Positions 3,336 through 63,165 of a stretch of 64,000 nucleotides of DNA are shown here, one piece after another (position 1 is the stretch's first letter; each line of letters begins with the position of its first letter). A program made the translations under genes and the position numbers. The notes under the pieces were generated by a model. It was not told the origin of the DNA. It saw nothing but the letters and a program-made list of their open reading frames with translations, and ran no database searches. Location of the stretch: contig NC_092671.1 in assembly GCF_964355755.1 (NCBI RefSeq), forward strand, positions 33,561,304 through 33,625,303, read 5' to 3'. This DNA is from Antedon mediterranea. Its lineage: Eukaryota; Echinodermata; Crinoidea; Comatulida; Antedonidae.

Positions 3336-6300
3336 TTACATAGCTGCGTTCAGCGTCGAGAAAACGAAACACTGAGATGCAATTTTATTTGCCGGAGCCA
3401 GACCGGAGCCGAATCGGAGAACATTTGAAAGATGCTTAATACTAACTTTTCCCTTTAGGCTTAACAGTTGTACCCACTAGAGATTTTGGTAATAATTCAA
3501 TTGAAATAATAAAAATTTATAATTATATAATGATCAATTTGATAATTTGATTAATGTATGATTTTTTCGTATAAGTTACGTTTCACGGGGTTCACGTAAT
3601 GAAACCATTGATCCGTCAAGCTAAAACTAGTTTGACAACATTACAACATGCACTGGCTTCCTTGTCATCTTTTTCGTATAAATAATGGTGTAAGAAACAA
3701 TGAAAACACTGCGTATCTTTTTAAGATGTTATGTTAATAATTAAATTTGTATTATATAGATACTTACGACGACCTAGTTGTATTCGGCGTTCATGGTCTA
3801 AAAATAGATAGAAAAAGTCCTGACAATGACAGGATATTATAATGCACATTTGTTACATATTTACATTACAAAATATTTTATAAATAAAAAATATTACATT
3901 TATTTAGATTTCAAGAACACACCTTAATTTTGTCAACGACCAAAGAATCCTAGGCCTAGCCATAGCTGGGCTAAAGCACCTAAAATAGGCTAGAAATGCA
4001 GGAAATATACTGTATGGCCCTTCGAATGATTAAACCTTGATGGCCCAAACGGGAATTGTAGGGCTCCTGTCGGGGGCTTGCAAGATAAGGTTGCTTCAAT
4101 GGTATTTGTGTGAATCCCAATGTGTAACAGCTGTAAGTCAACGTGAAATAGTCGTTTGGCTCTTTTTGCATGATTAAGTCTTGCATGAACCAACGTGCAT
4201 TTTGTGCTACTGCCTGCTGAAACTAGCAGGATGAAGTTGCTGTCAATGATATTTTTGTGCATCCCATAGTGTAACAGTTACAATGCAACATGAATTAGTC
4301 GTTTGGCTCTGTTTGCACGTCTTGTATGGCCCAACGTGTATTTCTAGGCTACAGTCTGGGGCAACTTACATAGAGGATAAAGTTGACATGATTAACATCA
4401 TTTGTGGGCCTACAGTGGGGGGGGGGGGGGGTGTAGAAAGCGATGACCCCGAATTGGACGACCCCAACGATTTGGGCGACCTCGAATTGGACGACCTAGA
4501 ATTGGACAACCCATAACACGAAACCGACGACCCCTATAGCCTAGCCTAGCCTAGGCCTAAGTGTGGTATAACATCCCGAAGCCGAACATAGCCAAATATT
4601 TTTAAACCATACCTTATATAATACTCGCAAGCTAGCAATTGATTAAAAAAATTCAGAAATATCGCCAGTTGATACTGAATGTGTCGACACGAACAAACGA
4701 ACACATATGGAACGCCAAGAGTGCATCATTAGAACTGCATAAATTGGTCCACTCACCAAGTGCGAACATTTAAAAAAAAAAACGATCGTTTTAGGTTAAT
4801 TTAAATATGGTAATTATATTATAATCAGGTCAAAGATCAAAGTGATACTTCCGGTCATTTTTGGAGAAAAAATCCATTAGAGTAAATGATGTATTCTGAA
4901 CAAATCCTCTCTAGCTAGTTACATAGATCTGGCAACATAAAATGTAGTCATGTCGTTGGCCGCCATCTTGGGGCAAACGTACAGATAGCCTTGATTGAAT
5001 TTGATTTGATTTTATTATTTGGGTTAACGATGACCAATCCACTGAGCAAACCTTACCCGCCGCTGAAAAAGGGGCCGTTTTGACATGGTTTGCCATGTTT
5101 ATGATATTTCGTGTGCTAATCGAGTCGAATGCAGTTTTAATGATGACCTCCTGGCATTCCATATCTGTTCGTTTGTTCGTGTCGACACATTCATTATCAA
5201 ATGGCGATATTTCTGTATTTTTTCAATCAATTGCTTGTATCAATCAATCAATCAATCAATCAATTGCGAGTATTATATAAGGTATGGTTTAAAGAGCGTT
5301 GGCTATGTTTGGCTTCGGGATGTTATACCGCACTTAGGCCTAGGCTAGGCTATTAGGGGTCGTCGGTTTCGTGTTATGGGAGCACATTTGAAAGATGCTT
5401 AATACTACTTTTTCCTTTAGGCTTAACAGTTGTACCCACTAGAGATTTTGATAATAATTCAAATTGAAATATTAACAATTAATTATCAATTTGATAATTT
5501 GTTTAATGTATGATCTTTTCGTATAAGTTACATTTCATGGGGTTCACGATATGAAACCATTGATATATGGTGAAACTAAGATCCGTTAAGCTCTGTTTAC
5601 ACTATCAAACTAGTTTGACAAAAATTACAGCAATGGCTTCCTTGTCATCTTTTTTGTATAATTGATGGTGTAAGAAACAATGAAACACTGCGTATCTTTT
5701 TTAAATGTTATGTTAATAATTAAATTTGTATTATAATTATATATACTCACGACGACCTAGTTGTATTCGGCGTTCATAGTCTATAAATAGATAGAAAAAG
5801 TCCTGATAATGACAGGATATTATAATGCATATTTTTTACATATTTACATTACAAAACATTTTTATAAATAAAAAATATTATATTTATTTAGATTTTATAA
5901 ACACACCTATAATACTACTGTATTGTTAATTTTGTAAACGACCAAAGAATCCTAGGCCTAGACATAGCTGGGCCGGCTAAAGCGCCTAAAATAGGCTAGA
6001 AATGTAGGAAATATACTGTATGGCCCTTCGAATGATTAAACCTTGATGGCCCAAACGGGAATTGCTGGGCTCCTGTCTGGGGCTTGCAAGATAAGGTTGC
6101 TTCAATGGTATTTGTGTGCATCCCAATGTGTAACAGCTGCAAGTCAACGTGAAATAGTCGTTTGGCTCTGTTCGCAAGTCTTGTATGGCCCAACGTGCAT
6201 TTCTGGGCTACAGTCTGGGGCAACTTACATAGAGGATAAAGTTGACATGATTAACATCATTTGTGGAGCTACAGTGGGGCTACTGTCTTACAAGATAAAG

Positions 6301-9300
6301 TTACTGTCATTGCTGTATACACATGTGGTATTTTATCCGTGTGGATTTTAACATGATATAGAAATAAATTCATTTATACATATTAACTAACCTTTGTTTT
6401 GCTTCACTTATTCCTAACTTATCTCTGTGTACACTGTCAAATATTTTAACAAAAAAGTGTGATGTTCCCAAAATGGTAGTGATATACCCAAATATGGTAG
6501 TGATATGACATCATCCCGTCCATATATGGAAACATCTTATTTTTTGCAACATAAACTTTGATAGTGTAGACAGAGCTTAACATCATGCAAATTCTCATAC
6601 AAAATTGCTGAAATAATAAAAAAAGTGAAGTTTTGCTTTAGGTTTGCATCTTTAGCAACCAAGGATATCACGTTTCAGTTATAAGTTTAACTTACCAGAA
6701 TCGGGTTCAGTTTTATTGTCTGAAAAACAAAGTGCAACTTTAAAAATAAAAAACAAATTATTTGAGTACAATGAATTCCAATTTAAAAAACGTAATCAGG
6801 CCTCTAATGTACTAATATTGGTTTTAACTCTGTTTTGTTCGGAATATGATGCGCTCTGAAATACATAAATTACCACATGATTTATTAAAGAACTAATACA
6901 TTCATAAACATATGTTTATATTACATAGTTTACTCCTACCAAGTTTGTTTTGTGTAAACAAAATGTATATATATATATGTATGTATGTATGTGCGTATGA
7001 TATTGTCAATCTTCATCGTCCTATTAATGAATGGCCTATTACGATATTTACTCACGTTCCGCATCTACTCCTCTCATTCTATCCGAGTCTGAATAGAGCA
7101 ACCCTTTAAATACAAAATACATACAAATATTTATTTAGATAATGACAAACGAAATATACAAATGCAAAGAAAAAGAAACAACAGCATGGGTATATTTTTT
7201 AACCAAAACTAAAAACATAAATTAACATAATTAAATTGATGAATAAAAGTGGTATGAACCCACAAAAGATAAAAAATATAATAAACACTATGATGGGTAT
7301 TGATATTATTATATCAACTTTGTTTTGAAAGAAATGCAACCAACCAATTAATTTTTAATTGTTGATGTCAACTGCCCGTTTTTTATTTTATGATGTTTTC
7401 CTATAAACTTATATGGTACTACTTTTTCCTAATGATTAGCTTCGGCCCGATGAACCACCCTAATAAATTATTTTTGAAATAAATAAATTAAAATAAAATC
7501 GAATGTTTACAAAAATTTATTCTTCTAGCGGAAACATGCTATAATCTGTGATACTGATACAAAACACACACTTTGTATCTCTAGAGTAGTAAAAATATTA
7601 CAAACCTACGCATCATTAGATCAACTCGCGTACCCCATAGTACGTGCCCACGGATGGTTCTCGAAGATATAAAGCTTTGACGTAAAGAACTGAAAATTTT
7701 TCAAAGTTAAACCAAGGAACTCCATAAACGCGATATAATGTTAAGTAGTTGGATATAATTGTGCCCATCATTAGCAGGTCTATAAGCTTAAGATAGATTA
7801 CGTGAAACAAATGCAAAATGTGATAAATACCAAAAAACATAACCCACATTGGGAAAAGGCACATACAATTAACATTTACATATTGCATTACAGAACCTTA
7901 TCCACTCACCACCTACCAAAAAATCAATATAATCCTAGCCAAAATTTAACCTAAATTCATTTAATCGTCAATAACTATGTATCAGTCTAACTAAACTTAA
8001 TTAATAAACATGTTTAAGGTGTTAAAATCAGTACCGAAAGTATGTATCAACTTACTATAGGGTAAACATTCCAAAGTGGAGCGCGATTTACCGAATTTTG
8101 CTCTTACGTAAATTTATATATAAATGATATATGCCTATTTTGTAAATATACAATGTTAACGTGTAATTACTTACCTGTATCCTGAAATACATTGTTAACA
8201 TTAATAAAAACAAAAACAAATCATGTAGGAGGACAATAAGTAAATGTAATAGATGGAGGCCTGATTACAAAACCATTAATTGATTCATATTTTCAACTTT
8301 TTGATTAGCTTTTTTTTAAATTATTATTTTTTTTTGTCATATAATAATATATGTATATATGCACATTTATATAATTCTCTTATTTATAAGGTACATTGTT
8401 AAAAAATACATATCTTTTGAACAGTATATACATAAGAATAAGATTATTTTGATGTTAAAAAGTAACCACATTTACATTCATATACATTTTTAAAAATACA
8501 ATTAGTTAAATTTGTCGATGGCAATAAAATGACGATAACAATTGATTTAAAAAAACGTAGTTATGAAAAAGTGATTATTTTTGTTTTATTCTGTTCGTGT
8601 CCGTTTCGTTTTTTTAAATTATTTAACGTTTAACACAAGGATCAGCTTTAGTCTCAAGAAGCCTATGCAACATACAACAAATATGAGCTAAGCAACAGAA
8701 GGTGTAAATATATTATAAAAAGACATGAGACAAGTAAATAGTAAATCAGTTTACCTTTCAGTGTTAACGTTTACTGTATTGGTACCTTTGTGATGTTAGG
8801 CCTACATTGTACACGCATTGTTTGTGGGTGATTAATTTGTATAGTATAATAGCCACTTTTCAACTAGGCGAATTTGTTCGCACGATTAAACGTTTTGCAG
8901 AGAAAAAAAACCCGCTATATTCTTTCCACCGCAAGAAAGCGAATAGCTGTGAATTATGATGTTCATCTTGTGTCTATTCAGCAGATTGTCGATTGTCATG
9001 AGTACTCATGAACGCACCATAGCTTATTTCATGAGCTCTGATTAGTTGCACAATGTTTCACTTCGTAAAAAATAAAACAATTCGAACTACCAATTTCGAC
9101 GAAAAAGAGAATATGCATGCGTAGAAGCAACTGCTTTTAATTCGAAAAATTCGTCACTAGTGAAAAATCGGCTTTACGGAAAATATTAATAGGCCTATGT
9201 ACATGTTTATAAAATACTATACATACATTTTACAAAAACTAATTGATAATTTACTTACTGCATCTTCTTGACAACACAAAGCTTCGACTGGAAATAAAAT

Positions 9301-9912
9301 TACAAGAAGCTTACTTGTTGACATTCAGATTGCCCGTCAATAAGTTTTAAGTTTAAAGCTTATAATAAGATTGGTTTATCATAAAATAATGTTTGTGTCT
9401 CGGTAAGGGAAACAACTAGTTTAAAATATTACTAGGCACTTACTTGGATATTGTCCATAAACAAACTGAAATGAAGACACGAACAAAATCACAAGGATCA
9501 AAGTTTGAAAACTGCCGAAAAAGAAATATTTTGGCAGCCATGAATGGATAATAATGAAAGAAAAGAATAGAAATTAAAATGTGTAGGTACAAAAGCAACA
9601 TTACTCTATCTTCAACTTTTGTGGTTTATCAAAGTTTCTGATATGCGAATAGTCTACTAACGAAACTTTTTTAGGTAAATGTATCAGTAAAATGGATTGA
9701 AAAAAAAAAACGTTTCATCCATTCCACTAAAAATGTAATAAGTAATAAAAAAAAAATACATTTGAATAATATTGTTCTATTTTTATTTTTATCCCTTTAC
9801 TATGTATGATGTTTATACAGTATTGTTATCTGTGACAAGAAAGGCCCATTTTAAACCTCTATTTTGACCAAAATTGAATTGGAAGTACAGGTACTTACAA
9901 TTTAGCTTGCAT
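3336..9912 (-). CDS. Gene A: micro-exon gene for a small secreted basic peptide
   Basis: Seen: exons 9899-9912, 9444-9511, 9259-9287, 8175-8181, 6696-6719, 5751-5780, 3768-3797 and a short last exon from 3343 (stop 3336-3338), most bounded by CAG or TAG acceptors and GTAAGT/GTGAGT donors. The 14-nt first exon gives MQAK plus two bases; exon 2 completes a hydrophobic signal peptide (FFQTLILVILFVSS, then FQFVYGQYP). Exon 3 (29 nt, CCQEDA) ends in phase 0 and the 7-nt exon 4 restores phase 1, so the pair totals 36 nt. Exon 5 is acidic (NKTEPDS). Exons 6 and 7 are copies made by a local duplication, each ending ERRIQLGR. Predicted length is about 69 residues. The 3' end is least certain: an alternative acceptor at 3372 would give a 36-codon hydrophobic tail. 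Inferred: a secreted precursor cut at RR sites; function unknown. Same family as genes B, D and F. Confidence 0.6.
3421..4416. repeat. Direct duplication, left copy (holds gene A exon 7)
   Basis: About 1 kb that recurs at 5386-6290 with small indels, starting ACATTTGAAAGATGCTTAAT. It contains the 30-nt exon 3768-3797 and a block of about 155-bp internal repeats (4030-4400, with GTCGTTTGGCTCT and GGCCCAACGTG recurring). The reading frames inside come from these repeats. Confidence 0.85.
4417..4510 (+). repeat. G15 run followed by a short minisatellite
   Basis: G15 at 4417-4431, then degenerate tandem copies of GAATTGGACGACC up to 4510. They give an Asp/Glu/Leu-rich chance reading frame. Confidence 0.6.
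4509..5379. mobile_element. Inverted-repeat element between the two duplicated copies
   Basis: Arms of about 220 bp: the left begins CCCATAACACGAAACCGACG and the right ends with its reverse complement (CGTCGGTTTCGTGTTATGGG). The arms share GTGTCGACACGAACAAACGA-type sequence and a CTAGCCTAGGCCTAAGTG block. No transposase. The right arm has an (ATCA)n expansion near 5240-5262. A non-autonomous foldback element, or one half of a larger inverted duplication. Confidence 0.75.
5386..6290. repeat. Direct duplication, right copy (holds gene A exon 6)
   Basis: Matches 3421-4416. Contains the 30-nt exon 5751-5780, whose flanking splice sites are conserved with the other copy. It has an extra segment CTCTGTTTACACTATCA near 5591, related to the terminal sequence of the small element at 6421-6579. 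Confidence 0.85.
6421..6579. mobile_element. Short inverted-repeat element (MITE)
   Basis: About 160 bp, with left end CTCTGTGTACACTGTCAAA and right end the reverse complement of AAGCTCTGTCTACACTATCA. Internal TATGACATCAT and GTCCATATATGG recur near 42.23 kb, at the right end of the outer nested element in gene D, so it is the same family. Confidence 0.6.
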
Positions 9913-12275: not shown

Positions 12276-12295
12276 TTAAGCAATTCATTTGTTCA

Positions 12296-15553: not shown

Positions 15554-15555
15554 GT

Positions 15556-33344: not shown

Positions 33345-35905
33345 CTGTATAGACTTTATAGACACACTTTGATATTATACATAATCCGATGCTTAAATAT
33401 CGTTTTAAACCTGTATAATAAATTTACGACTGAAAATGTTTAATTACAAAGGTTTTCATAATTATTTGAAATAAAATTTACAATATCACTATAGTCGTTA
33501 TTGTTATTATTCGAATATAATTCAATAAAACTCTGCATAAAAATATATCGTTTTAAACCTGTATAATATATTCACGACTGAAAATGTTTAATTACAAAGG
33601 TTAAACAACTATTTTCATAATTATTTGAAACAAATTTTACAATATCACAATAGTCGCTATTGTTATTATTCAAATATAATTCAATAAAACTTTGCATAAA
33701 CGAATAAAGTATGATTGAGGTGTTTTATTGTCTATGGAATGATAATTAATTGCACCTGTTGTATTTTCCAAATACAAGTCGAGAAATTGTACTGAAATGT
33801 ATACGTCAATAAATTTAGGTAGATCTGGTTAATAATTTTCTTCTGGATATTCCAAGTTGATATGAAAATTGGATTATTTAAACTGTCGTTTGTCATTGGT
33901 CAATTCGCTTGCGTTGCGTCCTATAAGTTTGAAACCAACTCGAGAGAGTAAGTTTTATATATTCTGAACTTGGATCGCCAAAAAGAAGATTATAACAAAA
34001 TACTATGATTGTTGTTATTATTATCAATAAGTGAAATAGAGAAAATGGTTAATCTTGTTTGAATCTTAGAAATTTAAAGTGTATGCATACATAACATTTC
34101 CATCTGTCAGATGCTGTAATGGACGAACTTGTTGGAATAATATACCTGATGAAATTCGTGTTCTATCTAACAACAAACTTTTTTCTTCTAAATAAAAAAA
34201 AAAACAACATTATTTCTAGATACTATTTACAACGTTTACGTTTTCTGAATCTGAACTGTTTGATCTGTGTACCGGTGTGAGTGTGGGTGTGTACCTGCTT
34301 GTGATTGCGTTTCAAAGAAATTAACAAAGTTAATATATGGCTCCTCCAACTCAGGCTTGCATTTTGGATGTGACTACCTTTTTTCAGCTTTCTATTTTTT
34401 TAATTATTATACATAATTATTTCGAGATAGAAATTTTGACATTCTTATATGATTGTCTGATGAAAATTCTAAATTGTATGTTTGTTTCCTTTTTGAAACC
34501 TTTTTACCTTTCATTGTTGTTATTGATTTTGTTTCTATCTTTTCTGTTTTAGAAGGAAATAAATGTTTATTTAGATTTGATTTGATGGAATTATTTCATT
34601 ATAGTTGAATCGGTAGTAATATTTATATAGACTTTATAGACACACTTTGATATTATACAGATAATCCGATGCTTAAATATCGTTTTAAACCTGTATAATA
34701 AATTTACGACTGAAAATGTTTAATTACAAAGGTTTTCATAATTATTTGAAATAAAATTTACAATATCACTATAGTCGTTATTGTTATTATTCGAATTTAA
34801 TTCAATAAAACTTTGCATAAAAATATATCGTTTTAAACCTGTATAATATATTCACGACTGAAAATGTTTAATTACAAAGGTTAAACAACTATTTTCATAA
34901 TTATTTGAAGCAAATTTTACAATATCACAATAGTCGCTATTGTTATTATTCAAATATAATTCAATAAAACTTTGTATAAACGAATAAAGTATGATTGAGG
35001 TGTTTTATTGTCTATGGAATGATAATTAATTGCACCTGTTGTATTTTCCAAATACAAGTCGAGAAATTGTACTGAAATGTATACGTCAATAAATTTAGGT
35101 AGATCTGGTTAATTATTTTCTTCTGGATATTCCAAGTTGATATGAAAATTGGATTATTTGAACTGTCGTTTGTCATTGGTCAATTCGCTTGCGTTGCGTC
35201 CTATAAGTTTGAAACCAACTCGAGAGAGTAAGTTTTATAAATTCTGAACTTGGATCGCCAAAAAGAAGATTATAACAACATACTATGATTGTTGTTATTA
35301 TTATCAATAAGTGAAATAGAGAAAATGATTAATCTTGTTTGAATCTTAGAAATTTAAAGTGTATGCATACATAACATTTTCATCTGTCAGATGCTGTAAT
35401 GGACGAACTTGTTGGAATAATATACCTGATGAAATTCGTGTTCTATCTAACAACAAACTTTTTTCTTCTAAATAAAAAAAAAACAACATTATTTCTAGAT
35501 ACTATTTACAACGTTTACGTTTTCTGAATCTGAACTGTTTGATCTGTGTACCGGTGTGAGTGTGGGTGTGTACCTGCTTGTGATTGCGTTTCAAAGAAAT
35601 TAACAAAGTTAATATATGGCTCCTCCAACTCAGGCTTGCATTTTGGATGTGGCTACCTTTTTTCAGCTTACTATTTTTTTAATTATTATACATAATTATT
35701 TCGAGATAGAAATTTTGACATTCTTATATGATTGTCTGATGAAAATTCTAAATTGTATGTTTGTTTCCTTTTTGAAACCTTTTTACCTTTCATTGTTGTT
35801 ATTGATTTTGTTTCTATCTTTTCTGTTTTAGAAGGAAATAAATGTTTATTTAGATTTGATTTGATGGAATTATTTCATTTTAGTTGAATCGGTAGTAATA
35901 TTTGT
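33345..35905. repeat. Tandem duplication, 1.28-kb unit, two copies
   Basis: Copy 1 about 33345-34625, copy 2 about 34626-35905, nearly identical. Each starts TATAGACTTTATAGACACAC and holds a short internal duplication of about 147 bp (33.40 and 33.54 kb in copy 1). Each also has a 71-codon hydrophobic chance frame starting MAPPTQAC. The unit begins at the presumed core promoter of gene B and covers its upstream region. The segment GTCGTTATTGTTATTATTCG recurs upstream of gene D near 44.49 kb. Confidence 0.9.
33354..33360 (-). promoter_or_regulatory. TATA box of gene B
   Basis: Reverse strand reads TATAAAG about 60 bp upstream of the gene B start codon. It lies at the start of the 1.28-kb unit that is tandemly duplicated, so a second copy of the same box sits near 34.63 kb. 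Confidence 0.45.
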
Positions 35906-37575: not shown

Positions 37576-40500
37576 CTAAACATTCGGAATACCTATAAAT
37601 AATCGAAATATTTAAATATTATTAATTGTATGAAGCCATATTTAAATAAAAAAAGTTATGATTTAAAGTAATACGTTAGCCTATCATAGTTAAGTAACCC
37701 GCAAACTCCGTGTTCTTTGAGGTTTAAAAGGACTACAGTAAGCCATGTGTTCCCCAGATGGAAAGTCTCCTTAACCTTTATTTGTTTTAAGACTTTTTAA
37801 AACTTACCCTCTTTCCGAGATTTTGGTCTTGCTATTACAAAATTAAAAGAAAAACCCCACATTAATCGAACAATTTGTAAATACACGAACTTATAATATT
37901 ATTCTATTTAGTTCTATTGAACAAAAAAGTTATACTCTGTATCTACTGCACGTTGTGCTTTTTGTAAACATTTTCTACCACGCCTGAGGTTGTTGAATGA
38001 TCCTCATTTGAAAATCAACCTATAGCGTCGTCTATATCTGTTATATTCCGAGTTCAAAATTGGAGTACTGTCACGTTGAATGACATAGTTTTCAGGCGTA
38101 GACTTTGACAATGATTCAAGATGGGAGCAGATAATTAATTGTATAACATTTTACTTTTGTAGGTGTGATATAATTCAAATAATACATGTAAACTGTATTG
38201 TAATAATTTATATAAAATAATTTTCTCAATCTTTCATTATGTGTATGCTACTGTATTACAAACATGTTTAGTATACTTACTTTCAGAGTTTATTGAACGA
38301 GTAGGTACTGAAACAAAGATCAGAAGAAAATAAATACATAATATTTATTTCAGGGTAGATAAGCAAGGTATGGTAAAAAGCCTATTTAAATACAATACTT
38401 ACATTCATCCCGACGAAATCGTTTCTTTACTGAAAAATACAAACACGATAACTTAAAGTTCAAGTGAAAGATTATGCATAATATTATAGTGTGTTTTATT
38501 TGGCAAGGGGTCTATTTGTTAAAATTATGATAACTACGACCCATTTAGGCCATACATTTTTATACGATGTAGTTATAGATCAGGATGTATTGGTGAGGGG
38601 CAGGAAGTAACGCTGGTATTTTCCGCGATGTAGGCCGTTTAATACGTGACGAGTTTTAGATTGCACACACTAGTTAAAAAATATTTAAATACAATACTCA
38701 CATTCATTCCTACCATATCGTTTCTTAACTGAAAAATACAAACACGATAACTTACAGTTCAAATGAAAGATTATGCATAATATTATACAGCTTTTAACCT
38801 GACTAGTGGTTTAAGCGACTGCCTTAAATAGCATTAATTAAATAATAGAGAAAGCCTATTTTTAAAGTAATCACAATTTGAATTAAATCAATCGTTATTC
38901 ACTTAAAAGAACATTAAAAACAAACAAAAAAAGAACCAAAATAATGAATTCACTTAAAAGATACAGTTAACCCAATGACCAAGGGTTGACTAAATATTTT
39001 TTTAAAGACACTTTCCTTGTCATTTTTTGACGTTTTGTAAAATATGCATATAATATATTACTATATGGTTATAACAGGTTCCAAAGGACAATTTGAGTGT
39101 CAAATGGTAAAAATGTAATATGTGACATTAAAATGACACATTTAAAAAAAATCAAGGTGAAAATTTATCTTTAATGTTTTGTTTTCAACAAATTTTTTGG
39201 TTAAAGTAAGTAACTGATAATTATGTGACAATAAAATAGAGATAAGCAAAGATCGACTCTTGCTAGTCTCAAAACAATATTATGTATTACTATTGTAAAA
39301 AATTAGGCATGTGGTATATGTAATGTTGTGTCTAAGACTTACTACTTTCCTGACATTGCCCAAATTCAGCCTGGAATAAAAACACAACTAAAAACACAAC
39401 GACCAACGTTTGCAATCTCCTGAGAAAAATATATCTGTATGTTTAAAGCTCTGTCTACACAAATATCAAACTGGTTTGACGTGTCCAAATATCGTATCGT
39501 ATTCATGAAAGGGGACTAACTTTAGTCCTGGACTATCTCTGAAAATTAGTCCTAGACTATCTAGAAATGGTATTCATGAAAGGGGACTATCTTTAGTCCT
39601 CCACTTAACCTGGGCCGATTGCAATAAAGGCCTTAACCGCAGTCTTAGACTTAAACCCAAGATGAAACCTTTAGCAACGAGGGTCATAGATTTAAGACCA
39701 TTGCAATAAGAAGTTTAAGCATAAGATTTTCAGAGCCGAGGACTTAGATTCCAAGCCTCCTCCAGGCAGGCTTACGCTAACAACACGACGCGAGCGCTCT
39801 TAAAGGGGGATTCTGGGTTTAAAATTGCTTTTAAATATCGTTTATTTATTAAATAAAAAATATTATAACAATATAGACATTTCAGAATGAAGAAGTAATA
39901 ACGAGAAATTAAAAAAATTAAATTTCATATACATTTTAGGGTAAATTCATGGAAAGTCTGTCTTTTAGCAGCTTAGGGAAGCTCATTAATATTCATGAGA
40001 TATTCACAAAATCACGTCACCAGTGGATTCCAAACTCGCGACGTCATGTACGTTGTGTTTGTCAACTAATTTACATCTCTCTCCCCTGTCAAACGACGAC
40101 CACCATTGTGATCATTGTGAAATACATTTTTTGTAGATTTTCTAAGCTAGGCCTAAAGTGTAATAATAACAGTAGTAGCATATATTTATTTGACATTTAA
40201 TGAAATAAAAAATTTAGTACAGATACGGAGTCATAAATTATACTATTTTTATACCTCTATAGTACAGATCGTATTATCGGCTTCACGTACAATACTACTC
40301 TAGGCCTAGCCTAATAATAATATGGGCGAGAGCCATTCTGACTAGGGATTCCATGCCACGATGGCTACGTTAAAACAATGGGGCCCATGGGCCTAGCTAG
40401 TCTACTACTAGACGATTGGCCCATAAATAACAAAACCCATCCTATCAACCAAACTCTTAAACAATCTAAACCTAAAACATTCTACAAAATCGGCTGTAAA

Positions 40501-43500: not shown

Positions 43501-44099
43501 CTTAAAGAAATTAATCAATGCATACATAGCGCTCTAATTTGTTATTAGCCCTCCCTAGATGTGATGAAAGGCCGTTTTTGATTGGTTAATACTCACGGTA
43601 TGAACCTGGTACACGCGGCGCGCTGAACATGCGGTGATTCGGCTCCTTGAAGAAGACGAATTATTAATTATTCGGCCTACTTGATAATAATATTATTATC
43701 ATTAATGTAGGCTCGTTGATGAAAATTCTTCCGTCAATTTAAATGACCTAGGCCTAAGTGAATATTTAATTGCCAAGAAATCATTAATTAGTAATTATCT
43801 GTATACCATTATTATTCTTCGCAGGCTTATTACATAAAAGAGGCCTAGCTACACCCGACCCAGCAACAGTAGATATTCAACTGGTTGTTGGCTATGTAAT
43901 ATAAAAGATATCGCCTTTTATATCAGTAAAATATAAGATTTGACATCCCCTTGTGAATGATGTAATGTTCTTGAGAAATATATTTCTCTCAGCTAGCGCT
44001 ACGGGAAATATATTCCCTCGGGGATGTCAAATCTTATATTTAACCTCTAAGCAGGCAATATATCTTATAATATAAGCCTACTTACAGTTTAGCTCCCAT
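37576..44099 (-). CDS. Gene D: micro-exon gene for a secreted peptide with repeated basic 9-mers
   Basis: Seen: exons 44086-44099 (14 nt), 39343-39419 (77), 38702-38728 (27), 38403-38429 (27), 38281-38307 (27), 37808-37831 (24) and terminal 37576-37592 ending in TAG. All acceptors end in AG after T-rich tracts and all donors are GTAAGT/GTGAGT. The protein (70 residues) starts MGAKL, has a strongly hydrophobic core (QTLVVVFLVVFLF), then QAEFGQCQES as in gene B. Three 27-nt exons give nonapeptides IKKRYGRNE, LKKRFRRDE and LPTRSINSE, followed by TRPKSRKE and GIPNV. The first two 27-nt exons and their flanking introns are direct copies of each other (38.40 and 38.70 kb). Intron 1 is 4.7 kb because of nested inverted-repeat elements. 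Inferred: secreted precursor yielding short cationic peptides; antimicrobial or signalling roles are possible but unproven. Confidence 0.75.
39612..42086. mobile_element. Third nested inverted-repeat element
   Basis: Left GGGCCGATTGCAATAAAGGC with CTTAGACTTAAAC; right end in reverse complement GGGGCGGATTGCAAGAC with TTAGGCTTAGATAT. Arms are diverged but long (over 100 bp). Contains the fourth element. Confidence 0.55.
39799..41386. mobile_element. Innermost nested inverted-repeat element
   Basis: The left end TAAAGGGGGATTCTGGGTTT is matched by TTTAAACCCGGAACCCCCCT in the right end. About 1.6 kb of AT-rich interior with short frames only. No transposase recognised. Confidence 0.6.
43090..43320 (-). 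mobile_element. tRNA-derived SINE
   Basis: The reverse strand starts near 43319 with TAGCCGAGTGG (A-box consensus), then GGGTTCAATGCCC (B-box-like), followed by a body with CAGCTGTAAAATGAGTACCT, a sequence type common in SINEs of marine invertebrates. No complete cloverleaf, so not a tRNA gene. Confidence 0.55.
43431..43498 (-). repeat. Second tRNA-like block
   Basis: The reverse strand has TGGCGCAACGGGTGAAACG (A-box-like) and GAGTTCAAGTCTC (B-box-like) about 35 bp apart. Probably another SINE head or a tRNA pseudogene. Confidence 0.4.
43929..44041. mobile_element. 113-bp hairpin element with perfect 22-bp arms
   Basis: Arms 43929-43950 and 44020-44041 are exact reverse complements (AAATATAAGATTTGACATCC plus CC). 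It sits 45 bp from gene D's first exon, inside intron 1. Typical of a very short MITE. Confidence 0.75.
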
Positions 44100-44169: not shown

Positions 44170-45060
44170 CCAATACATTAACATTTTAAAAGGTTAAATC
44201 AACACAACAATGAGATATAAGTAATATTTTATACACGAATTTAAAATATTTTTTTTGCATGTGATAATCAATTTTGTCAATTGTCGTTATTGTTATTAAA
44301 TATTATTCAAATGTAGTTACATAAAATAGTGCCTATATTTAATTTGTGCTTATTATTATATTGTGTATGGAATTAAAAGAATGTATGATAATACACACCT
44401 GCTGTAAGGAATTGATTAATATATAAAACATGAATAAAATGTTTAAACAAGATTATTCAAAAAAACAGTTTTATATGTGTAATTTTACAATTTTCGTTAT
44501 TGTTATTATTCGAATATCATTAAATAAAACAATGTTTATGAATAATTTTTAATGTATTGTTGACGTGTTTTTATTATGTTTTTATTGTTTAAAATGGGAT
44601 TAATTATTTTATTAATTTACACCAGTTGTCTGTCAAAATGTAATATTAAATACATGTTTTGATACGATGATGATCAATAGTATTCTTTTCTTAATTCTTC
44701 AATCCAAAGCTCTCCATTTACTCATTTCTATATATCTCATTTTTGTATTAGCAATAGTATTATTGTTCAAGTATACTTCTACCTTTATATCTTATTGCAT
44801 ACTGTAGGGCATGTAGTACGGTGTATATAAATAGAAAAAAGGCTCATATTCAGTTACAACTGTTTGTATTTTCTGTTTTGCCACCTTCGAAATTTACCAT
44901 TTTTTATTTATCCTGAACAAGACTGGATTACTAATTTGGTAATATTCTTTGTACTTCTGTACGCGGAGCACATCGATATTTCACCGTAAAATGTCCAATT
45001 AAATTGTTTTAATATAAGAAAAAGTTGAAAGTATTTTGTTGCTCTTATACTTTACATGCA
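44170..45060. other. Upstream region of gene D; no other gene recognised
   Basis: AT-rich, with GTTATTGTTATTATTCGAAT near 44.49 kb shared with the gene B upstream duplication. Confidence 0.4.
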
Positions 45061-46295: not shown

Positions 46296-49012
46296 TTCCA
46301 GTGTTTATTCCTTTAGGAGGTGTTGAAAAAAAAACAAGAATAATAATATGAACGTATTGAAGTGAATAATTTTTTTTCATTTTTTTATATCGACGTCGAC
46401 AAAACCATGTTTTAAAACCGTGGTTGCGTTAGGTTTGACCTAACAAAGGGTTCAGATAACACTTTTAGCCCTAGCTAATTTTTTCTAGGTGGGATCAGGG
46501 AAACGACCCGCAATATTTTAAATAATATTTACTGAGTCTAATTATTTTACAACTACCAATTTTTTTAGATCCTTAAACCATGGAAAATTTGTCAATGCCG
46601 GTGTCATGAGCAGCTCCCTCTATATTTTATAAATAAACTTGTGCATGTTCCTGTAGCTACCCATAAAAAAAGGATTAAACAGCCTGATACGAAAAGCCAA
46701 AAAGATTGAAAATAAAAGAAATATCATAAGTACGTAACACTTTTATAAATACCAGCATGTACCTGACTGAATCTATTTAATATGTTTAAAAGGGCAGATT
46801 AAAAGTTTTATATTTTTAGTTAAACAAGTATAAAACAAAATTGGTTGCTGGTTGTAAGAACTGGATAGAAATTTAAAACATAACAAGCTTCTGGCATTAA
46901 AAACACTTACAATAAAATATTATAAAACTTCAAGTAAAATACAGCACAACATTATTTAATGCATGCACATTATTGCAAATATTAGGTTGTTGTACCTACA
47001 TCTAGTTATCTACTCACCTTCATTCAGACAGATTCTTTCATTATCTGAAATAAGTAAAGTGACATGGAGTAATAAAGAAGGTTATTCAATAGGCCTACGT
47101 TCTTATGATTAGTACCAAAGTTTGTATATCATTACAGGTGAAATTAATCTATTATATACATTTCGTTTACAAAATTCTATTGATTGTCTTTTTTTTAATT
47201 TACGTTTTTATGACCACCAATTTCTGTCAAGTTTCCATACATCATTTCTGACAGGGGACAGAATCAATCGTAATTGGCATACATTTCGCATCTTACCATT
47301 CTCATTTTCAGTACAGACTCAAATAATACTATAAATAATAAATACAACAATACTACAAATACAACAACTAGGCATAAAGTTAAGAAGTTTCTGTGAATAG
47401 AATATACGGTACACATTGCCAAAAGCAATAGTTACACAGATAAATAAAAACAAGTATGCTTAATCATAAGAAAAAAATGAGTAAATAATACAATTAATAG
47501 CTAATTTTAAATATATAGGATTAATTTACGTTTCATATATTTTCATAATATTAAAAAAAGAAGATCAGCTTTATGATATTTCGTCAAAGATCGGTTGGTG
47601 ATTGTATTAGGAAATAGAGTAAACAGGCGCATCGATAAATAGATTTCAATAATATAAAAATTGTAGAATGTTATTAAAAAAAATATAACCGATGATAAGT
47701 TTTAGGATGTTATAATTTTATAATAGTAAATATTCAAAGGAAAATAAAATGTAATAAACTATATAGTGACAGCATACAGTGACTTCATTACCAATCTGTT
47801 TAGAAAAAAAGATAACCGGAATTGTTTTCCAGTGTGGTGGGTGTACCGTAAAAAACATATAAATATGCTAGAATCCGTTCAGAGGAGAGCTACCTGCATG
47901 ATCTTAAAGAAAGGTTATTTTAGATCAACATTATATAGATAGAAGAAAGGGGCTAGGTCTAATGTCAATAGAGAATAGGCGTGATTTCTTAAACATGACA
48001 TTCATTGCCAATATAATAATTTCTCCACGATCTGATTTTATGAGTGAATATGTTGATTCTTTTTTAGTTAATAACCGACACCTATATATACTCACCTTTC
48101 ATCATGGTAGAGCTCGTACTGATGCTTTTAAATACTCAGGATTAGTACGGTTTCCTAAAATGTTTTCAGAACTTGGTGCTACGATCAGAAACAATCTTAT
48201 TGAAGAGTCGTTTTTTAAGTTTAAACACAGTTTAGAGCAACATTTTACAGATTTTTTAACTTTTCATATTTTTATTAACATGATTGTACATACTTTGAAT
48301 TTTTAACTTTTTAACTTTTATACAATGAGAATTTTTTACTTTTATACAATCAGAATTTTTAACTTTTATACAATCAGAATTTTTTACTTTTATACAATCA
48401 TAATTTTTAACTTTTATACAATCAGAATTTTTACCTTTTATTCAATCAGAATTTTTAACTTTTACACAATCAGAATTTTTAACTTTTACACAATCAGATT
48501 GTTCAGATAGCAATTGCATTTTTATTACACTTTTGTTAACATTTTATTATACCATATTTTTCTATGTATTTTTCTAAAGTTGTTAAATGTCGGTTTTATT
48601 GTATCGTTCAAGTTGACAGTGGCTGGTCAAGCACATCACAAGATGACAGTTTTATACTTTTGCTTTTCCGCTACTCCCCTGTTATACTTATATGTTTGTT
48701 TTTTTGCTATGTAGAAAGATTAAATATATATTAAAATGAAGAATGTTCAAGTATCGGGAGTATATACACTAATAGTTATAACTTAGTTGAAATAGAAAAT
48801 GTTACATTAGGTTTGGGCATGGCAAACATGCTTGCGGTCAATATTTATCTAAAAATGTTTAGCCAAACGATATAATATTAGATAATAATCCTGTGAGTAA
48901 CTTCTAACTTTTTGGAGAAACGAAATCTCATGATAATAACCATGTATGTGTTAGCTTGGGAGTATAGGATATGCAACAATAACCTACAATGTACTTACAT
49001 TTTACTCGACAT
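46296..49012 (-). CDS. Gene E: partial or decayed micro-exon gene
   Basis: Seen: a family-type start exon at 48999-49012 (MSSK plus AT, donor GTAAGTAC), a 27-nt exon at 47018-47044 with TTATCTGAAA-type acceptor in reverse and GTGAGT donor, reading NERICLNE in phase 1, and a possible 15-nt exon at 46296-46310 (INTG) with a long T tract before its acceptor and a GTAAGT donor. No signal-peptide exon is visible between the first two, where a decayed LINE fragment (47.83-48.31 kb) and a 24-bp tandem repeat sit. The copy is therefore either broken by insertion or uses an exon I could not recognise. No stop exon identified. It is included because start-exon length, phase and context match genes A, B, D and F. 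Confidence 0.35.
47800..48306 (+). pseudogene. LINE 3'-end fragment
   Basis: Reads CFPVWWVYRKKHINMLESVQ and RRATCMILKKGYF, then after a frameshift LGLMSIENRRDFLNMTFI, SDFMSEYVDSFLV and LGATIRNNLIEESFFKFKHS, ending at 48306. These are typical of the C-terminal tail of APE-type LINEs. The RT core is absent. It lies between gene E exons. Confidence 0.65.
48300..48505 (+). repeat. 24-bp tandem repeat, about 8 copies
   Basis: Unit TTTTTAACTTTTATACAATC plus AGAA, directly after the LINE fragment stop codon. It may have grown from the LINE 3' end. Confidence 0.9.
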
Positions 49013-57194: not shown

Positions 57195-57199
57195 ATAAA

Positions 57200-58320: not shown

Positions 58321-61300
58321 TTACCGACGGCGGCGGCGGCCAAAAGAAACTTAAAATAATCGAAATATTTGAATTATCAACCCTATTTTAGACGATTTAC
58401 AATTTTCGTGTGGTAGCCCTAGTATATAAAAGTATAATATTAAACTGATATTAAGGTTTTATAAATTTAAAAATAAGAATAATTATGGTTACAATATTTA
58501 AGTTATTAAAGATGTATTGTCATCCACAAACCCACATAAATATTACTACAATTTAATTTTGAATAGCCCATTTTGTAGTTTTAGTTAATCACTTCTGAAA
58601 TAAAAATTGTTTTTACTCTTAAAAGACAAAACAAATTCAACCCATTTAGGCCTACTGGTAGTCAGTTTTAAATTAGTTCTTTTGGTCAAAGTGAATAATC
58701 ATTATGGAATATTCAACAAACTAATTTAAAAAAAAGTCAAGGGGACAATTATTATATTATCTTTAATACTGTAATGCCTTGTAACCTAAACTCTCTTTTT
58801 TGCCACTCAATATCCTACAAATAATAATGGTGTTTTCTATAGACCTTCATTATCATACTGTGCAACTGGCCTATGTATTTTCTCAATTAACATATTATTA
58901 TTATTGAAAAACATCACAATTTGTATTTATATTCAACATAATCAGTTTACTTATTGCCTTGAAAGTTAAAAACTTAAATACAATATTGAAGTGTACGACA
59001 TAATATTATATAGATTTATTTAAACTTACTTATTTATCTTTGTTCTAAAATTGAGTTAAAAATCTTACCTATTTTGTTCACCTGCTTGCTTCCTTACATA
59101 AAATAAAAGAAATAATTAGAATATCCATCAATTAATTGTCTTAACTGGAATGTTGTAAAACAAATAGCCTAGGAAGAATAGTATGTTATAGGAAGTTGGT
59201 GGTACACATTTGACATAATTACATATTTTACTTATGATTAGGTTTAGTTATAATTTGTTATTGTTGTTTCAAAACTTCAAATGCGGCGAGCTTATCCATT
59301 CGAAAGTGTGCACACATTCGGGTGAATTTAAAATCAACTGAGTTGAATACTTAAATGTTCCCCTCTTCAAACTCTGGACACACTGAGGTTTATACGGTAG
59401 CAATTATAGGTTATTAAATGCAAATGGTAGGAGTAGAGTATGACGACACAACTGTTTATCTCCGTGGTTTGAACACGGTAGTTACACACCAATTGGTATT
59501 GTGTCAACAAAATGCATTTAACGGTACTTAAAATGAATATGTAAAAACGTTTTTCTAATAATACTATTTTCAAATAATTCTATTGAAAATTCTATTAAAA
59601 ACTGGATGCCTATTACAAACGCATCGGATTTTTCAAAGTATTAAAATAAATGTATACAGCTAAATCATTCCAGACTCACCTCCATCCCGACGGACTCTTT
59701 CATCTGAAGTGCATTCTAATGAATAGTATCAAAAGTATATAGTAATTAACCAGAGAATAGTAAAATTAAATTTGTAATTCAATCAATTATTTGTTTGTCT
59801 TATCAATATTGTCAAATGAATTATAACACAAAACTATGGTTATACATTTTTTAACCATTTAACATAATCTAATAATAATTATTAACTTAGCCTAATTATA
59901 ATGTACACGGGTTAAATTGAGTATGACAAAGTATAAAAATAATTATTGTTTATGATTACAAGGGGTAAACTAATTTCACGAAGTTCTCGTTTGGTTAGCC
60001 GTTCTCGATTGAGAACGTCAGGCCGTAGGTCACCTAATTGTGTGAGGTTCTTGTTTGGTTAGCCGTTCTCAATTGAGAACGTCAGGCCGTAATTGACAAG
60101 TTGACATATGCATTGCCTTTGCGTTAGAGAGACCAGTAACGTATTTGCATTATATATGTATATTAAAATTAAATAAAATTGAATTAATAATAAATAATAA
60201 GTATAAATCAATTAATCAATGTCTAGGGTCACACAACCAATCTAAAGCTCATGGATATAATACAAGTGATCGACTACTATACCTTCTTGGCTTAGATAAA
60301 TTATACTATACTACACTAGATTAGAATATGCATGTTGCAAAATATCTAAGTGCTGTGAATATGTGCAATGTATAACTATAATATTTTTTTTTATTACACG
60401 TCCAAATGTATTGTTTATTATAAATTTATTTTAGTTAAGATCATCAAGCATAATTTTGATTCTTAGTCTAATTCTCGAATCACTTTATGATACTACGGTT
60501 TTATTGTTTAATTCCTACATAGTTACCAATACTTATCACCAGCCTGATTGCCTTCTGGAGTGCATTCTATTGAATATAATAAAGCAGATCATTTGAAATT
60601 GCAATGATTGTATGTATTATCAATATTATTAATGATAATCATGATAATATAACATAACTTAGGTTAATAAGTTTTGATAAATTATTAAAAAATAAAATGT
60701 CTCGAATAATAAATTAATCAAAATACCGTTATAAATTACTTATTAGAAATTTAGAAATATTAATTTATTATTTGTTGACGGGTGTGACAAATTTAAGGTA
60801 TTTTACAAATAACTGTAACTGTAATTATTTAATTTATCATTATTTTTTTTTACAGGTTTTCAAGTAATTTATTCGTGTTTTAAAATTATTCCGATCAGGA
60901 ATGTGTAGTTATTCACATATCTCTACCTTCCCGGCGGATTGTGTTATGACCTGAAATTGATATGAATAAAAACTATTAATGATTCGGTAAATAAGATTGT
61001 TTGTATTTCATAATTATGACTTTGATAACATGAATTACGATATAAATAAAATATTAAACCTTTGATTTTTTATTAGTTTAAAAATGTAAACAAATATAAC
61101 ATTTGACTGTATTTGACCAGGGAGTTGTAACATTTTACAACTCCCTGATTTGACTTACTTTCTTTATTTATTCCAGAAAGAATAACACCTGGATCTGAAA
61201 GAAGAAATTATGTCAGGTTTAGTTTCAGTTGTTTTAAATTGTTATGTTCGTAAATAAATGAACCACGCGTTAAAACGTACATAGGAATGTGTAATGCATC

Positions 61301-62483
61301 TGTTTTTCTTTTCCATTTTCTTATACATTATTATTTCACAGCAAGATTTTGTTCTTTTTTTTTATTAATATAAAGCAAAATGTGAATAAAAATGATGAAA
61401 TAGATCGAATATCCAATCAAGCAAAGGAGAATAGGCCCTAATTAGTACCTTATATTGTCATTGTTATTTTCACCTACAAAATAAAAAAATTGTTGATTTC
61501 AGATAATATAACAGCAATTGGAAGAGTGAAACCTTGATTAAACCACCTAATCAAATACCACCCTGATAATAGTAAATGTGTCCTGCGTTGAACAGGACTT
61601 TTGAGACCAACTCGAAATTTCCAACAAACTTTATTGGCTACACAGTATCTGGCTTAGAGTTAAACACAATTGCTCTGAGAACTAGCTACATCATTACGGG
61701 AGTTATCAGCGTGTTTGATTCGATAACATAATTTGAAGCTTTAGGCATTAAGCGCTATAGTAATCACAATGGTATTGACAGTGTACCTGCAATGATTTAT
61801 GATTACTTACCCTCACTTTTCCCAAAACCTAAGTTAGAATGAAATATAAAACCTATCAAATATACAGCAACAAAAGATAGCAGGCTCCTGTAAATAAAAC
61901 AAAATAGAAAAAAAGAAATAAATTAAGCATTGAGAATTGCAACATATTATACTTACTAGATTTTTCAACATCTTCAATGTATCGATTTTTCTTAAAATAG
62001 TAGGCATAATACGTTAGTTGTATATTATTTACGAAAAAACATGAAAATAACTTTTAGTATTGTTTCACTAATGTACATGCATTCTTCTTTATAAATTACC
62101 ACTCAGGAGATAAATAAAGATATACAATTGAATTGCTGACTTTAAAGTAGACTTTATACTATGTCAACATACATAAATACAAAACAAGTAATATCATACA
62201 TTTATGTTTCATAAAATATCATATTGCTTCACACCCTAATTAGTATATCGAAATAACGTGACTGCAAAATAACAATATATCAATATTTATACTACGAGAT
62301 GCAAGTATTTAATTGTAAGCATCAGTGTATCTGTTTACCAATGAATAATCTTATTTTTTCTGAATATGGTTTGTTACATAGACACTCATTGCATCTCGTA
62401 GTAGGCCTATTGATATTATTATCAATAATAAAAGCGCTAAATAGATAGACCCACTTAACAAATACTTACAGTTTACCCAACAT
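58321..62483 (-). CDS. Gene F: micro-exon gene for a secreted peptide ending in FGRRRRR
   Basis: Seen: exons 62470-62483 (14 nt), 61811-61887 (77), 61159-61194 (36), 60927-60950 (24), 60540-60566 (27), 59680-59715 (36), 59069-59092 (24) and terminal 58321-58349 with TAA. All internal introns after the first are phase 1 and every junction codon closes in frame, giving 88 residues. MLGKL plus SLLSFVAVYLIGFIFHS is a clear signal peptide. The mature part reads DPGVILSGINKE, SHNTIRRE, ECTPEGNQA, ECTSDERVRRDG, GSKQVNKI and VSFGRRRRR. The last exon's upstream flank resembles that of gene D's last exon (ATAATCGAAATATTT in both). A Gly followed by five Arg is the usual context for C-terminal amidation in neuropeptide precursors, so an amidated product is possible; this is inference. 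A second possible terminal exon (59.03-59.05 kb) would end the protein EQR. Confidence 0.7.
59983..60092 (+). repeat. 64-bp direct repeat, two copies, each with a hairpin
   Basis: GTTTGGTTAGCCGTTCTC occurs twice, followed by a (near-)palindrome around GTTCTCAATTGAGAAC and GTCAGGCCGTA. In an intron of gene F. Confidence 0.85.
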
Positions 62484-62534: not shown

Positions 62535-63151
62535 CATACACATAATTGACACGTTCAACATGTGGAGTTTTTCACTTCATTAATTTTATCACCTTTTTCA
62601 TTTAAAATTTCAATTAGCCATCTTATTGTTTTTACTACATTAAAATAATTATCACACTAAAACTAAATTAATTGCACTTTAATTTTTATTACAATAGTTG
62701 AATTTATTCAGATAATTAAATGCTTTAATTAGGGTCAAACTGTACCATAAGTAAGTGAACTTTAGACTGACAAATACATTCAACTACCATCATTTTAACT
62801 TAATGTTTAAGTATACGTCGTGCATATTTCATTCCCTTGATTTTTTTATGTAAATAATATATAAAGATGAAATTATGTGAATTAAAATCCATGATCTAAA
62901 TTGAAAGAACATTAACTTACCGTTTTATTGATTGAATATGTATATAATAGTTTATTCAAATTAAACAGTCCATTATTAATTTTAATATATACCACCTTTG
63001 TTATTTGTATTTTTTATTTATTTAACTAAGGGAACATCTCCACATGTTTGAAATGACGTAAACCTATACATGTCAACATCGTAATGACTTTAATTGAAGG
63101 TTCATTATCGAAACTGATCGACCTCTACGTTAACATTGCTCTTGCATCATG

Positions 63152-63165
63152 ATGCTAAGTAAACT
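63152..63165 (+). CDS. Gene G: first exon of a sixth micro-exon gene, divergent from F
   Basis: On the plus strand the 14 bases reading M-L-S-K-L(partial) are followed directly by GTAAGTATAC, the same exon length, phase 2 boundary and donor as the start exons of A, B, D, E and F. An extra in-frame ATG lies just before at 63149. It faces gene F head to head with about 670 bp between the two start codons. No signal-peptide exon is recognised in the remaining 0.8 kb, so the rest of the gene should lie beyond the window. Confidence 0.4.

Follow-up and report, generated by a model that had tools for sequence, protein, structure and literature searches.

What kind of gene is encoded where a 14-nt start exon and a hydrophobic exon are followed by little more than a series of exons of a few dozen nucleotides? 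This question is raised by the window (the whole stretch of 64,000 nucleotides analyzed here), in which six loci with such a start exon, A to F, were considered. We think it probable that they belong to a family of secreted prepropeptide genes that has grown by tandem duplication, with each microexon corresponding to one small peptide module, and that the host is an ambulacrarian, probably a crinoid.

A regular-expression scan recovered all six of the 14-nt start exons with an MxxK peptide and a GTAAGT donor that had been described in a sequence-only reading of the window. A seventh match, at 39356 on the minus strand, lies inside the signal exon of gene D and was taken as spurious. The same reading had placed signal-peptide exons after four of the start exons; the number is five of six (A, B, D, E, and F, at 68, 71, 77, 77, and 68 nt, respectively), all in frame. 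As it had also claimed, QAEFGQCQ is common to B and D, and QTL[IV][LIV]V is found in A, B, and D. The start and signal-peptide exons are as follows.

9899..9912, minus strand: start exon of gene A (MQAK)
9444..9511, minus strand: signal-peptide exon of gene A, 68 nt
33281..33294, minus strand: start exon of gene B (MSAK)
32291..32361, minus strand: signal-peptide exon of gene B, 71 nt
44086..44099, minus strand: start exon of gene D (MGAK)
39343..39419, minus strand: signal-peptide exon of gene D, 77 nt
48999..49012, minus strand: start exon of locus C (MSSK)
62470..62483, minus strand: start exon of gene E (MLGK)
61811..61887, minus strand: signal-peptide exon of gene E, 77 nt (71 nt with an alternative donor)
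63152..63165, plus strand: start exon of gene F (MLSK)
63584..63651, plus strand: signal-peptide exon of gene F, 68 nt, donor GTAGGT

A signal exon for locus C was sought in two scans, one of which recovers the signal exons of A, B, D, and E, and was not found; the start exon of C looks degenerate. Judged by eye and by hydropathy, a hydrophobic signal exon is present at five of the six window loci and at 10 loci on contig 2. The family had been called dispersed. At the scale of the host genome, which measures 354 Mb in probably 11 chromosomes, it is instead a tandem cluster. Its 13 loci, of which at least two are degenerate, occupy no more than 350 kb on contig 2, and a single further signal exon lies on contig 8. 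Among the outlying members, gene K has one microexon only, with a weak donor, and locus L is followed by no good microexons downstream. The host genome also contains an ordered cluster of 12 Hox genes, read as Hox1–8, 9/10, and three 11/13 genes, which we take to fit Ambulacraria. Judged by this cluster the host is not a flatworm, and the earlier suggestion that another animal joins a signal peptide to series of symmetric phase 1-1 microexons is borne out for the predicted runs. A search for COX1 gave no match and hence no mitochondrial code to read, and a reverse-transcriptase search was uninformative about the host.

Eleven signal exons are open and have AG and GT ends, ten of them on contig 2 and the other on contig 8; they are 65–80 nt long, and the length is 2 mod 3 in all 11, a rule that matches the 14- or 17-nt start exons where these were found (9 genes). 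In nine distant pairs the identity of the signal exon is 0.74–0.89, versus 0.42–0.60 in the 150-bp flanks. Values of dN and dS were calculated for 12 pairs of 7 genes; the K–J pair gave no usable dS and G and H are identical. dN is below dS in every one of the 10 computable pairs; the genes covered are K, J, G, I, D, and B, with A, E, and F outside the comparison. These comparisons indicate purifying selection on the signal exon. For the short exons, the 39-nt exon of gene B (B3) and its homologue in G share 32 of 39 bases, versus flank identities of 0.62 and 0.52, and the exons of G and I are 94.3% identical versus 90.3% for their surroundings, a difference that is not significant (p = 0.067).

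The predicted microexons and related segments of the window loci are listed below.

9255..9287, minus strand: possible microexon of gene A, 33 nt (EALCCQEDAV); the boundary is ambiguous, and a stronger donor would give 29 nt in another phase
7056..7088, minus strand: microexon of gene A, 33 nt (SDRMRGVDAE)
6696..6719, minus strand: microexon of gene A, 24 nt (NKTEPDS)
5751..5780, minus strand: microexon of gene A, 30 nt (YERRIQLGR)
3768..3797, minus strand: microexon of gene A, 30 nt (HERRIQLGR), within a duplicated segment
2917..2943, minus strand: short exon-like segment of gene A, 27 nt, with a stop in phase 1
2714..2772, minus strand: putative terminal coding exon of gene A (GFGYVMKNRTCECRVVHT*), with AATAAA within 2635-2619
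32056..32100, minus strand: microexon of gene B, 45 nt (PWEEECIDLNGNTK)
30965..31003, minus strand: microexon of gene B, 39 nt (CMSVYNRIRRGL), with a homologue in G, H, and I
30691..30720, minus strand: microexon of gene B, 30 nt (GDRILRELG), similar to GDRIIRST of G, H, and I
38702..38728, minus strand: microexon of gene D, 27 nt (KKRYGRNE)
38403..38429, minus strand: microexon of gene D, 27 nt (KKRFRRDE); its segment matches that of 38702..38728 at 86%
38281..38307, minus strand: microexon of gene D, 27 nt (PTRSINSE)
37808..37831, minus strand: possible microexon of gene D, 24 nt (RPKSRKE), weak acceptor
47018..47044, minus strand: microexon of locus C, 27 nt (NERICLNE)
46296..46322, minus strand: degenerate microexon of locus C (PPKGINTG), with the GTAAGT donor intact and the acceptor AA for AG
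61159..61194, minus strand: microexon of gene E, 36 nt (PGVILSGINKE)
59680..59703, minus strand: possible microexon of gene E, 24 nt (ERVRRDG), weak acceptor
C2:33625845-33626720, plus strand: four predicted microexons of gene F (30, 27, 27, and 30 nt), just outside the window

The predicted runs are 30-39-27-27-33 nt in G, 30-27-27-30 in F, 33-24-30-30 in A, and 27-27-27-24 in D, the last of these with the weak acceptor; B has three predicted microexons and E has two. Two features of the 3' end of gene A count against the gene-family model. The exon-like segment at 2917..2943 has counterparts of 28 nt in G and 31 nt in I, and the phase-1 stop is found in all three genes; in addition, the likeness of A to G at the last exon continues into the introns and the 3' flank. 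Separately, should 3336, the coordinate at which the sequence-only description starts, mark an exon, paralogue G has a 14-nt gap beside it.

The number of such short exons was compared with expectation by a fixed scan (length 18–48 nt, acceptor score at least 0, donor score at least 4) that used hand-written splice-site matrices. The setting was fixed after several changes of threshold, when many exons, those of F, J, and K included, were already known, so the scan was not blind. On the minus strand of the window it returned 30 candidates (Markov mean of 10.2), 21 of them divisible by 3 (Markov, 3.9); divisible-by-3 candidates open in phase 1 numbered 19 (Markov mean of 2.0), with 7 in phase 0 and 4 in phase 2. 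The plus strand gave 4 candidates, 1 divisible by 3 and 1 open in phase 1. At one candidate per donor the minus-strand set falls to 16, and removal of 4 pieces of start or signal exons leaves 12 microexons of 24–45 nt; two or three more in the window have a weak acceptor or an ambiguous end. The internal exons had been put at 7–45 nt, nearly all of them symmetric and divisible by three. The phase-1 excess agrees with that description; the smallest exons supported here measure 24 nt, and exons as short as 7 nt find no support.

Both the window and the G/H/I region show a strand-specific excess, and the same scan finds no microexon excess in a 75-kb flank. In the G/H/I region the excess is not phase-specific, with 13 candidates open in phase 0, 12 in phase 1, and 8 in phase 2. 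Likewise, the excess in gene F is not phase-specific (4, 4, and 1 open in phases 0, 1, and 2). Phase-1 candidates number 4 on its own strand versus 2 on the opposite one, and for gene K the figures are 1 versus 2. The fact that the predicted models read open is partly a consequence of how the exons were selected.

The 12 window microexons, at their predicted boundaries, are all shorter than 70 nt and divisible by three, as micro-exons are defined in the relevant passage of PMC7653826, where a micro-exon gene has at least seven exons, at least half of them micro-exons. Of the 8 exons predicted for G, 5 are micro, and the model of A comprises 7 or 8 exons, including 4 or 5 micro-exons; the models of B, D, E, and F end without an identified last exon.

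Microexon motifs of the window reappear in paralogues outside it. Two are recurrent, [IL]N-x-E and the furin-like R-x-x-R-[DNSEG]; R-x-x-R is the minimal furin-type cleavage site. Seeds from the window and the G/H/I region led to new candidates in F (2, on the plus strand), J (2), K (1), and G (1). These seeds matched the plus strand 3 times in 235 kb, 2 of the matches being in F, and four 120-kb Markov runs yielded 0, 1, 2, and 1 matches. Three minus-strand seed matches (scores of 20–24) fall at places read as unrelated. With seeds from the window only, 10 of 20 strict outside candidates scored at least 20 (6 of 15 distinct peptides), versus 3 of 127 looser candidates from real control DNA and 1 of 105 from Markov sequence. 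The R-x-x-R motif is present in 9 of the 31 distinct strict candidates, compared with 3 of 143 controls and 0 of 77 Markov candidates, counts that are too high because of homology. Such sites are found in the predicted secreted precursor, as expected for furin processing. A Pfam search of the gene models returned matches below the cut-off only, and among 27 candidates no relative of the G model appeared at E ≤ 10.

Promoter parts are shared as well. In B, D, G, H, I, and J, a TATA box lies 53–69 bp 5' of the ATG, and an upstream element is matched at 18 or more of 21 positions; the best score among 660 background stretches of 900 bp is 16. B and D served to define the element, and the other four genes are partly recent copies. 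A, C, E, and F lack it.

33495..33515, minus strand: upstream element of gene B, TTCGAATAATAACAATAACGA, with TATAAA at -66 (33360)
44494..44514, minus strand: upstream element of gene D, TTCGAATAATAACAATAACGA, with a TATA box at -62 (44161)

In the gene plan that we propose, a start exon of 14 or 17 nt would be followed by a single signal-peptide exon that ends in phase 1, then by a series of symmetric phase 1-1 microexons of 24–45 nt, and finally by a short last exon. Since the microexons are predicted to be in phase 1-1 and divisible by three, they would be self-contained modules of about 8–15 residues, which could therefore be gained, lost, duplicated, or skipped without a break in the frame. 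The recurrence of an R-x-x-R followed by D, N, S, E, or G suggests, as the likely product, a small secreted precursor from which short charged peptides would be cut, and exon skipping would perhaps add further variety. We infer from the DNA that the exons are spliced and skipped and that the product is secreted and cleaved; any role in defense or signaling is likewise an inference. We put forward only tentatively the stronger proposal that an echinoderm has independently evolved a system like that of the flatworm micro-exon genes (MEGs), in which every phase 1-1 microexon forms a peptide unit, many of these units carry a furin-type site of their own, and skipping selects the peptides that a secreted precursor releases.

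Less probable than the preferred reading, but a serious rival to it, is a real family with real microexons that are spliced constitutively into a fixed small secreted protein, such as a component of mucus, matrix, or skeleton or an antimicrobial one. The microexons would then stem from intron-mediated exon duplication without a combinatorial role, and R-x-x-R would be part of a charged repeat. Simple exon duplication also yields symmetric exons, as in the 27-nt pair of gene D with its 86% identical segment, and 22 of the 31 distinct strict candidates are without R-x-x-R. However, this motif is commoner than in the controls, and the number and kind of modules vary among the paralogues, as expected if modules are interchangeable.

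That the cluster is decaying, a formerly active family now largely of pseudogenes with many exons as relics, we regard as unlikely. Locus C, with its missing signal exon and changed acceptor, would fit such decay, as would the degraded signal exon of locus Z, the GC donor at one exon of gene H, and the stop in the last exon of gene I, which comes earlier than in G. Against this stand the eleven open signal exons with splice sites, the values of dN below dS in the ten computable pairs, and the TATA boxes and upstream element retained in six genes. Less probable still, to the point of being very improbable, is that the exons are chance AG...GT pairs of AT-rich introns, which any reader could chain into genes. 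The hand-written matrices and altered thresholds leave room for such chaining, single short exons are weak individually, and the excess in F, J, and K by themselves is small. The strand and phase specificity in the window, the flanking DNA without excess, the selection on the signal exon, and the return of the same motifs in paralogues all argue against it.

If the preferred reading of a modular prepropeptide family is true, micro-exon genes are no flatworm oddity of parasitism or blood feeding, and the architecture can arise more than once, a deuterostome included. Echinoderm secreted-peptide repertoires may then be undercounted, since standard gene finders and homology searches have difficulty with genes of this kind. 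Thanks to the short motifs and the promoter element, the idea is open to direct testing by RNA-seq. Among the matches listed for literature pairing echinoderm or crinoid with microexon, there was no report of such genes.

Within the echinoderms, the sea urchin Sp185/333 (SpTransformer) genes are also a clustered and diversified family, with secreted immune products built of modular elements, but they have two exons, and the variable elements lie within one large exon. Crinoid SALMFamide neuropeptide precursors are likewise secreted echinoderm precursors that hold several peptides; in the portion of PMC9793003 concerned with their genes, however, the introns are in phase 0 and the peptides lie in one or a few exons, with no phase 1-1 microexon run. 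Schistosome MEG-4, MEG-8, MEG-14, and MEG-26 encode secreted proteins with a signal peptide, and MEG-26 has been duplicated recently and contains an internal duplication in which exon lengths are repeated (PMC5825161). The signal peptide, secretion, and duplicated exons liken their gene build to that of the present genes; they are flatworm esophageal proteins, and the passages of PMC5825161 that describe them do not mention furin-like modules. On chromosome 6 of Hymenolepis microstoma, ten micro-exon genes within ~430 kb share a conserved N-terminal motif and multiplied by tandem duplication, as described in the pertinent section of PMC7653826. Our cluster is likewise tandem, within ~350 kb, the shared motif being that of the signal peptide, and the microexons are divisible by three in both. 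Those genes are from a tapeworm, the motif printed in that section is unlike the one here, and they are annotated with transcripts, whereas the genes described here are predictions from DNA. By analogy, the gene build is like that of the flatworm micro-exon genes and may be an independent invention.

All six start exons of the sequence-only reading, at the minus-strand loci A, B, D, C, and E and the plus-strand locus F of the predicted secreted-peptide family, were recovered with the pattern ATG-x-x-AAR-NN plus a consensus donor, together with one match within the D signal exon. Signal exons had been claimed after four of these starts; they are present, but the number was too low, and five starts precede a phase-1-ending signal-peptide exon (A, 68 nt; B, 71; D, 77; E, 77; F, 68), with none found downstream of the start of locus C. 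Among signal exons bounded by AG and GT, 11 in all, the lengths are 65, 68, 68, 71 (four), 74, 77, 77, and 80 nt, each of them 2 mod 3. A 14- or 17-nt start exon was located for A, B, D, E, and F and for G, H, I, and J, further family loci on the same contig (C2) outside the window; none was found for K, another such locus, or for the signal exon on contig 8.

The signal exons were compared in 12 pairs among seven genes (K, D, B, I, J, G, and H). The nine distant pairs have signal-exon identities of 0.74–0.89, versus 0.42–0.60 in the 150-bp flanks. dN was lower than dS in all 10 pairs with both computable (dN 0.019–0.185; dS 0.147–2.318), the pairs outside this count being K-J, with no usable dS, and G-H, which are identical. 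Upstream flanks are also conserved in the close pairs I-J and G-I, as expected because these are recent copies.

Candidate exons 18–48 nt long, with a fair acceptor before and a good donor after them, were tallied on both strands, using limits settled after many exons were already known, and first-order Markov versions of the sequence served as the chance control. The minus strand of the window holds 30 candidates; 21 have a length divisible by three, and 19 stay open when read in phase 1, compared with 7 in phase 0 and 4 in phase 2. Markov means for the total, the multiples of three, and the phase-1 set are 10.2, 3.9, and 2.0; the plus strand holds 4, 1, and 1. Merging the window candidates by donor gives 16, and subtracting 4 start- or signal-exon pieces leaves 12 predicted microexons. 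The excess in the G/H/I region is strand-specific and comparable (28 candidates, 18 divisible by three; Markov, 13.6 and 5.0; opposite strand, 11 and 4), without phase specificity (13 open in phase 0, 12 in phase 1, and 8 in phase 2). Candidates for the proposed symmetric phase 1-1 microexons in multiples of three are above chance on the minus strand of the window, but the phase is not specific in G/H/I. A 75-kb flank gave no clear excess on the minus (15, 7, and 5 open in phase 1; Markov 15.9, 5.8, and 2.8) or the plus strand (10, 3, and 3; Markov 18.1, 6.8, and 3.3). Open phase-1 candidates number 4, 3, and 1 in the short regions of F, J, and K, versus 2, 1, and 2 on the other strand.

When 18 peptides of the window and of G/H/I served as seeds for a search of 235 kb, 37 matches were obtained on the minus strand, mainly the seeds and their alternative acceptors; the others were one new G exon and three seemingly unrelated matches. 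Two of the 3 plus-strand matches lie in gene F just past the window, where four consecutive candidates read TLPPGIHNG, HDRIGRDV, NDRIRRDE, and KSRIRCLDE. The seeds also found new candidate exons in J (2) and K (1), and four 120-kb Markov runs gave 0, 1, 2, and 1 matches. In a further test (14 seeds from the window only, score ≥20), 10 of the 20 strict candidates outside the window, those passing fixed splice-site limits, reached the limit (F 1/4, J 2/3, K 0/1, G/H/I 7/12). This falls to 6 of 15 distinct peptides because the seven G/H/I matches are two exons in three copies plus one. The controls gave 3/127 looser candidates (opposite strands and flank) and 1/105 Markov candidates. Microexon B3 of gene B and its G copy are identical at 32 of 39 bases (flanks 0.62 and 0.52). 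A degenerate DNA pattern combining motif and donor has two matches in the window, one each in an exon of D and of E, and none in 100 shuffles; its six distinct places in the family loci examined are read as family exons belonging to D, F, G (two), H, and I.

The predicted peptides include two types of module. The first is approximately x-[DEKN]-R-[IVFY]-x-R-[DNGSE]. The minimal furin-type site, R-x-x-R, occurs in 9 of 31 distinct strict candidate peptides (start- and signal-exon pieces included), versus 3/143 controls and 0/77 Markov peptides, a count raised by homology among the exons. The second ends in [IL]-N-x-E (PTRSINSE, PPKKINTE, SSIMEINAE, PAAKRSGLNAE, and PGVILSGINKE). A copy at locus C, PPKGINTG, retains its donor and has AA at the place of the acceptor AG; loci C and Z, the latter on C2 outside the window, look degenerate. 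K has a single microexon with a weak donor, and the VDQIHQEQ microexon known from G has a GC donor, not GT, in gene H (C2:33535934-33535851). Locus L (C2:33644001-33653900) has a signal-exon-like stretch after a CAR-rich repeat, is glycine-rich past the signal, and yielded no convincing microexons.

Several observations speak against the models, among them the degenerate look of C and Z, the scarcity of good microexons at K and L, and the GC donor in H. Exon conservation between G and I is not significantly higher than that of the surroundings, and the frames of the models are open partly because open exons had been picked. A protein search with the G model gave no relative at E ≤ 10, and a Pfam search of the predicted models gave nothing above cut-off, which fits novelty but could equally come from a wrong model. 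We consider the predicted gene architecture well supported and very probably correct. The genes would make small secreted precursors with one short module per microexon, the phase rule would permit free duplication, loss, or skipping of modules, and proprotein convertases would cut the R-x-x-R modules. Such peptide processing and combinatorial module use are much less supported, at somewhat below an even chance.

Other elements of the window are as follows.
4542-5352, inside the gene A span: nested pair of inverted repeats with 103- and 107-nt arms
11504-18240, plus: ORF matching a GDSL/SGNH-type hydrolase (PF13472), then several long ORFs; resembling a Ngaro/DIRS-type retroelement
12245-12927: tandem array, period ~65 bp
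15623-17643, minus: more ORFs, reverse-transcriptase-like by eye
18440-18834: tandem array, period ~44 bp
26118-29159, plus: non-LTR retroelement lying between B and A; two adjoining same-frame ORFs with a single stop between, matching endonuclease (PF03372) and reverse transcriptase (PF00078)
33357-35758, upstream of gene B: tandem duplication, spacing ~1280 bp, repeating the B promoter element too
48260-48547: tandem array, period ~24 bp
57249-57320, minus: tRNA-Asp-like gene (Rfam 41.4 bits; ARAGORN anticodon atc), touching an inverted-repeat arm (57190-57254); possibly SINE-borne

The window occupies C2:33561304-33625303. The assembly comprises 354,431,138 bp in 18 contigs, with C1, C2, C10, and C11 of 41.4, 40.9, 25.0, and 22.3 Mb and C12, C13, and C18 of 567, 136, and 13 kb. 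From the contig sizes and the confinement of all 104 homeodomain matches listed to C1–C11, the chromosome number is probably 11. Crinoids typically have 11 chromosomes. Against this number for crinoids, a review spanning all five classes gives 36–46 diploid chromosomes for most echinoderms (extract of PMC3308324). Readable homeodomains were found at 12 of 13 places in C2:7.79-8.21 Mb. We take these 12, which lie in order with one inverted, to be Hox1–8, 9/10, and three 11/13 genes; the cluster fits Ambulacraria. The feather star Anneissia japonica (33.22% GC, estimated 553 Mb) has 12 such genes, the first ten ordered on one scaffold (extract of PMC7351957), and Hox4 is absent from sea urchins (extract of PMC3308324). 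On these features a crinoid is likely, and a hemichordate or a different echinoderm is less probable. COX1 was searched for without a match.

A literature search on echinoderms or crinoids and microexons, with most subscription journals outside its coverage, gave no micro-exon-gene report among the matches listed. As predicted, the G and A models would probably count as micro-exon genes under the criteria published for tapeworms.(PMC7653826) The nearest parallel to this family is in a tapeworm, where ten clustered micro-exon genes have an N-terminal motif in common.(PMC7653826) The predicted family is built like a micro-exon gene family, a likeness of build and not a claim of descent.
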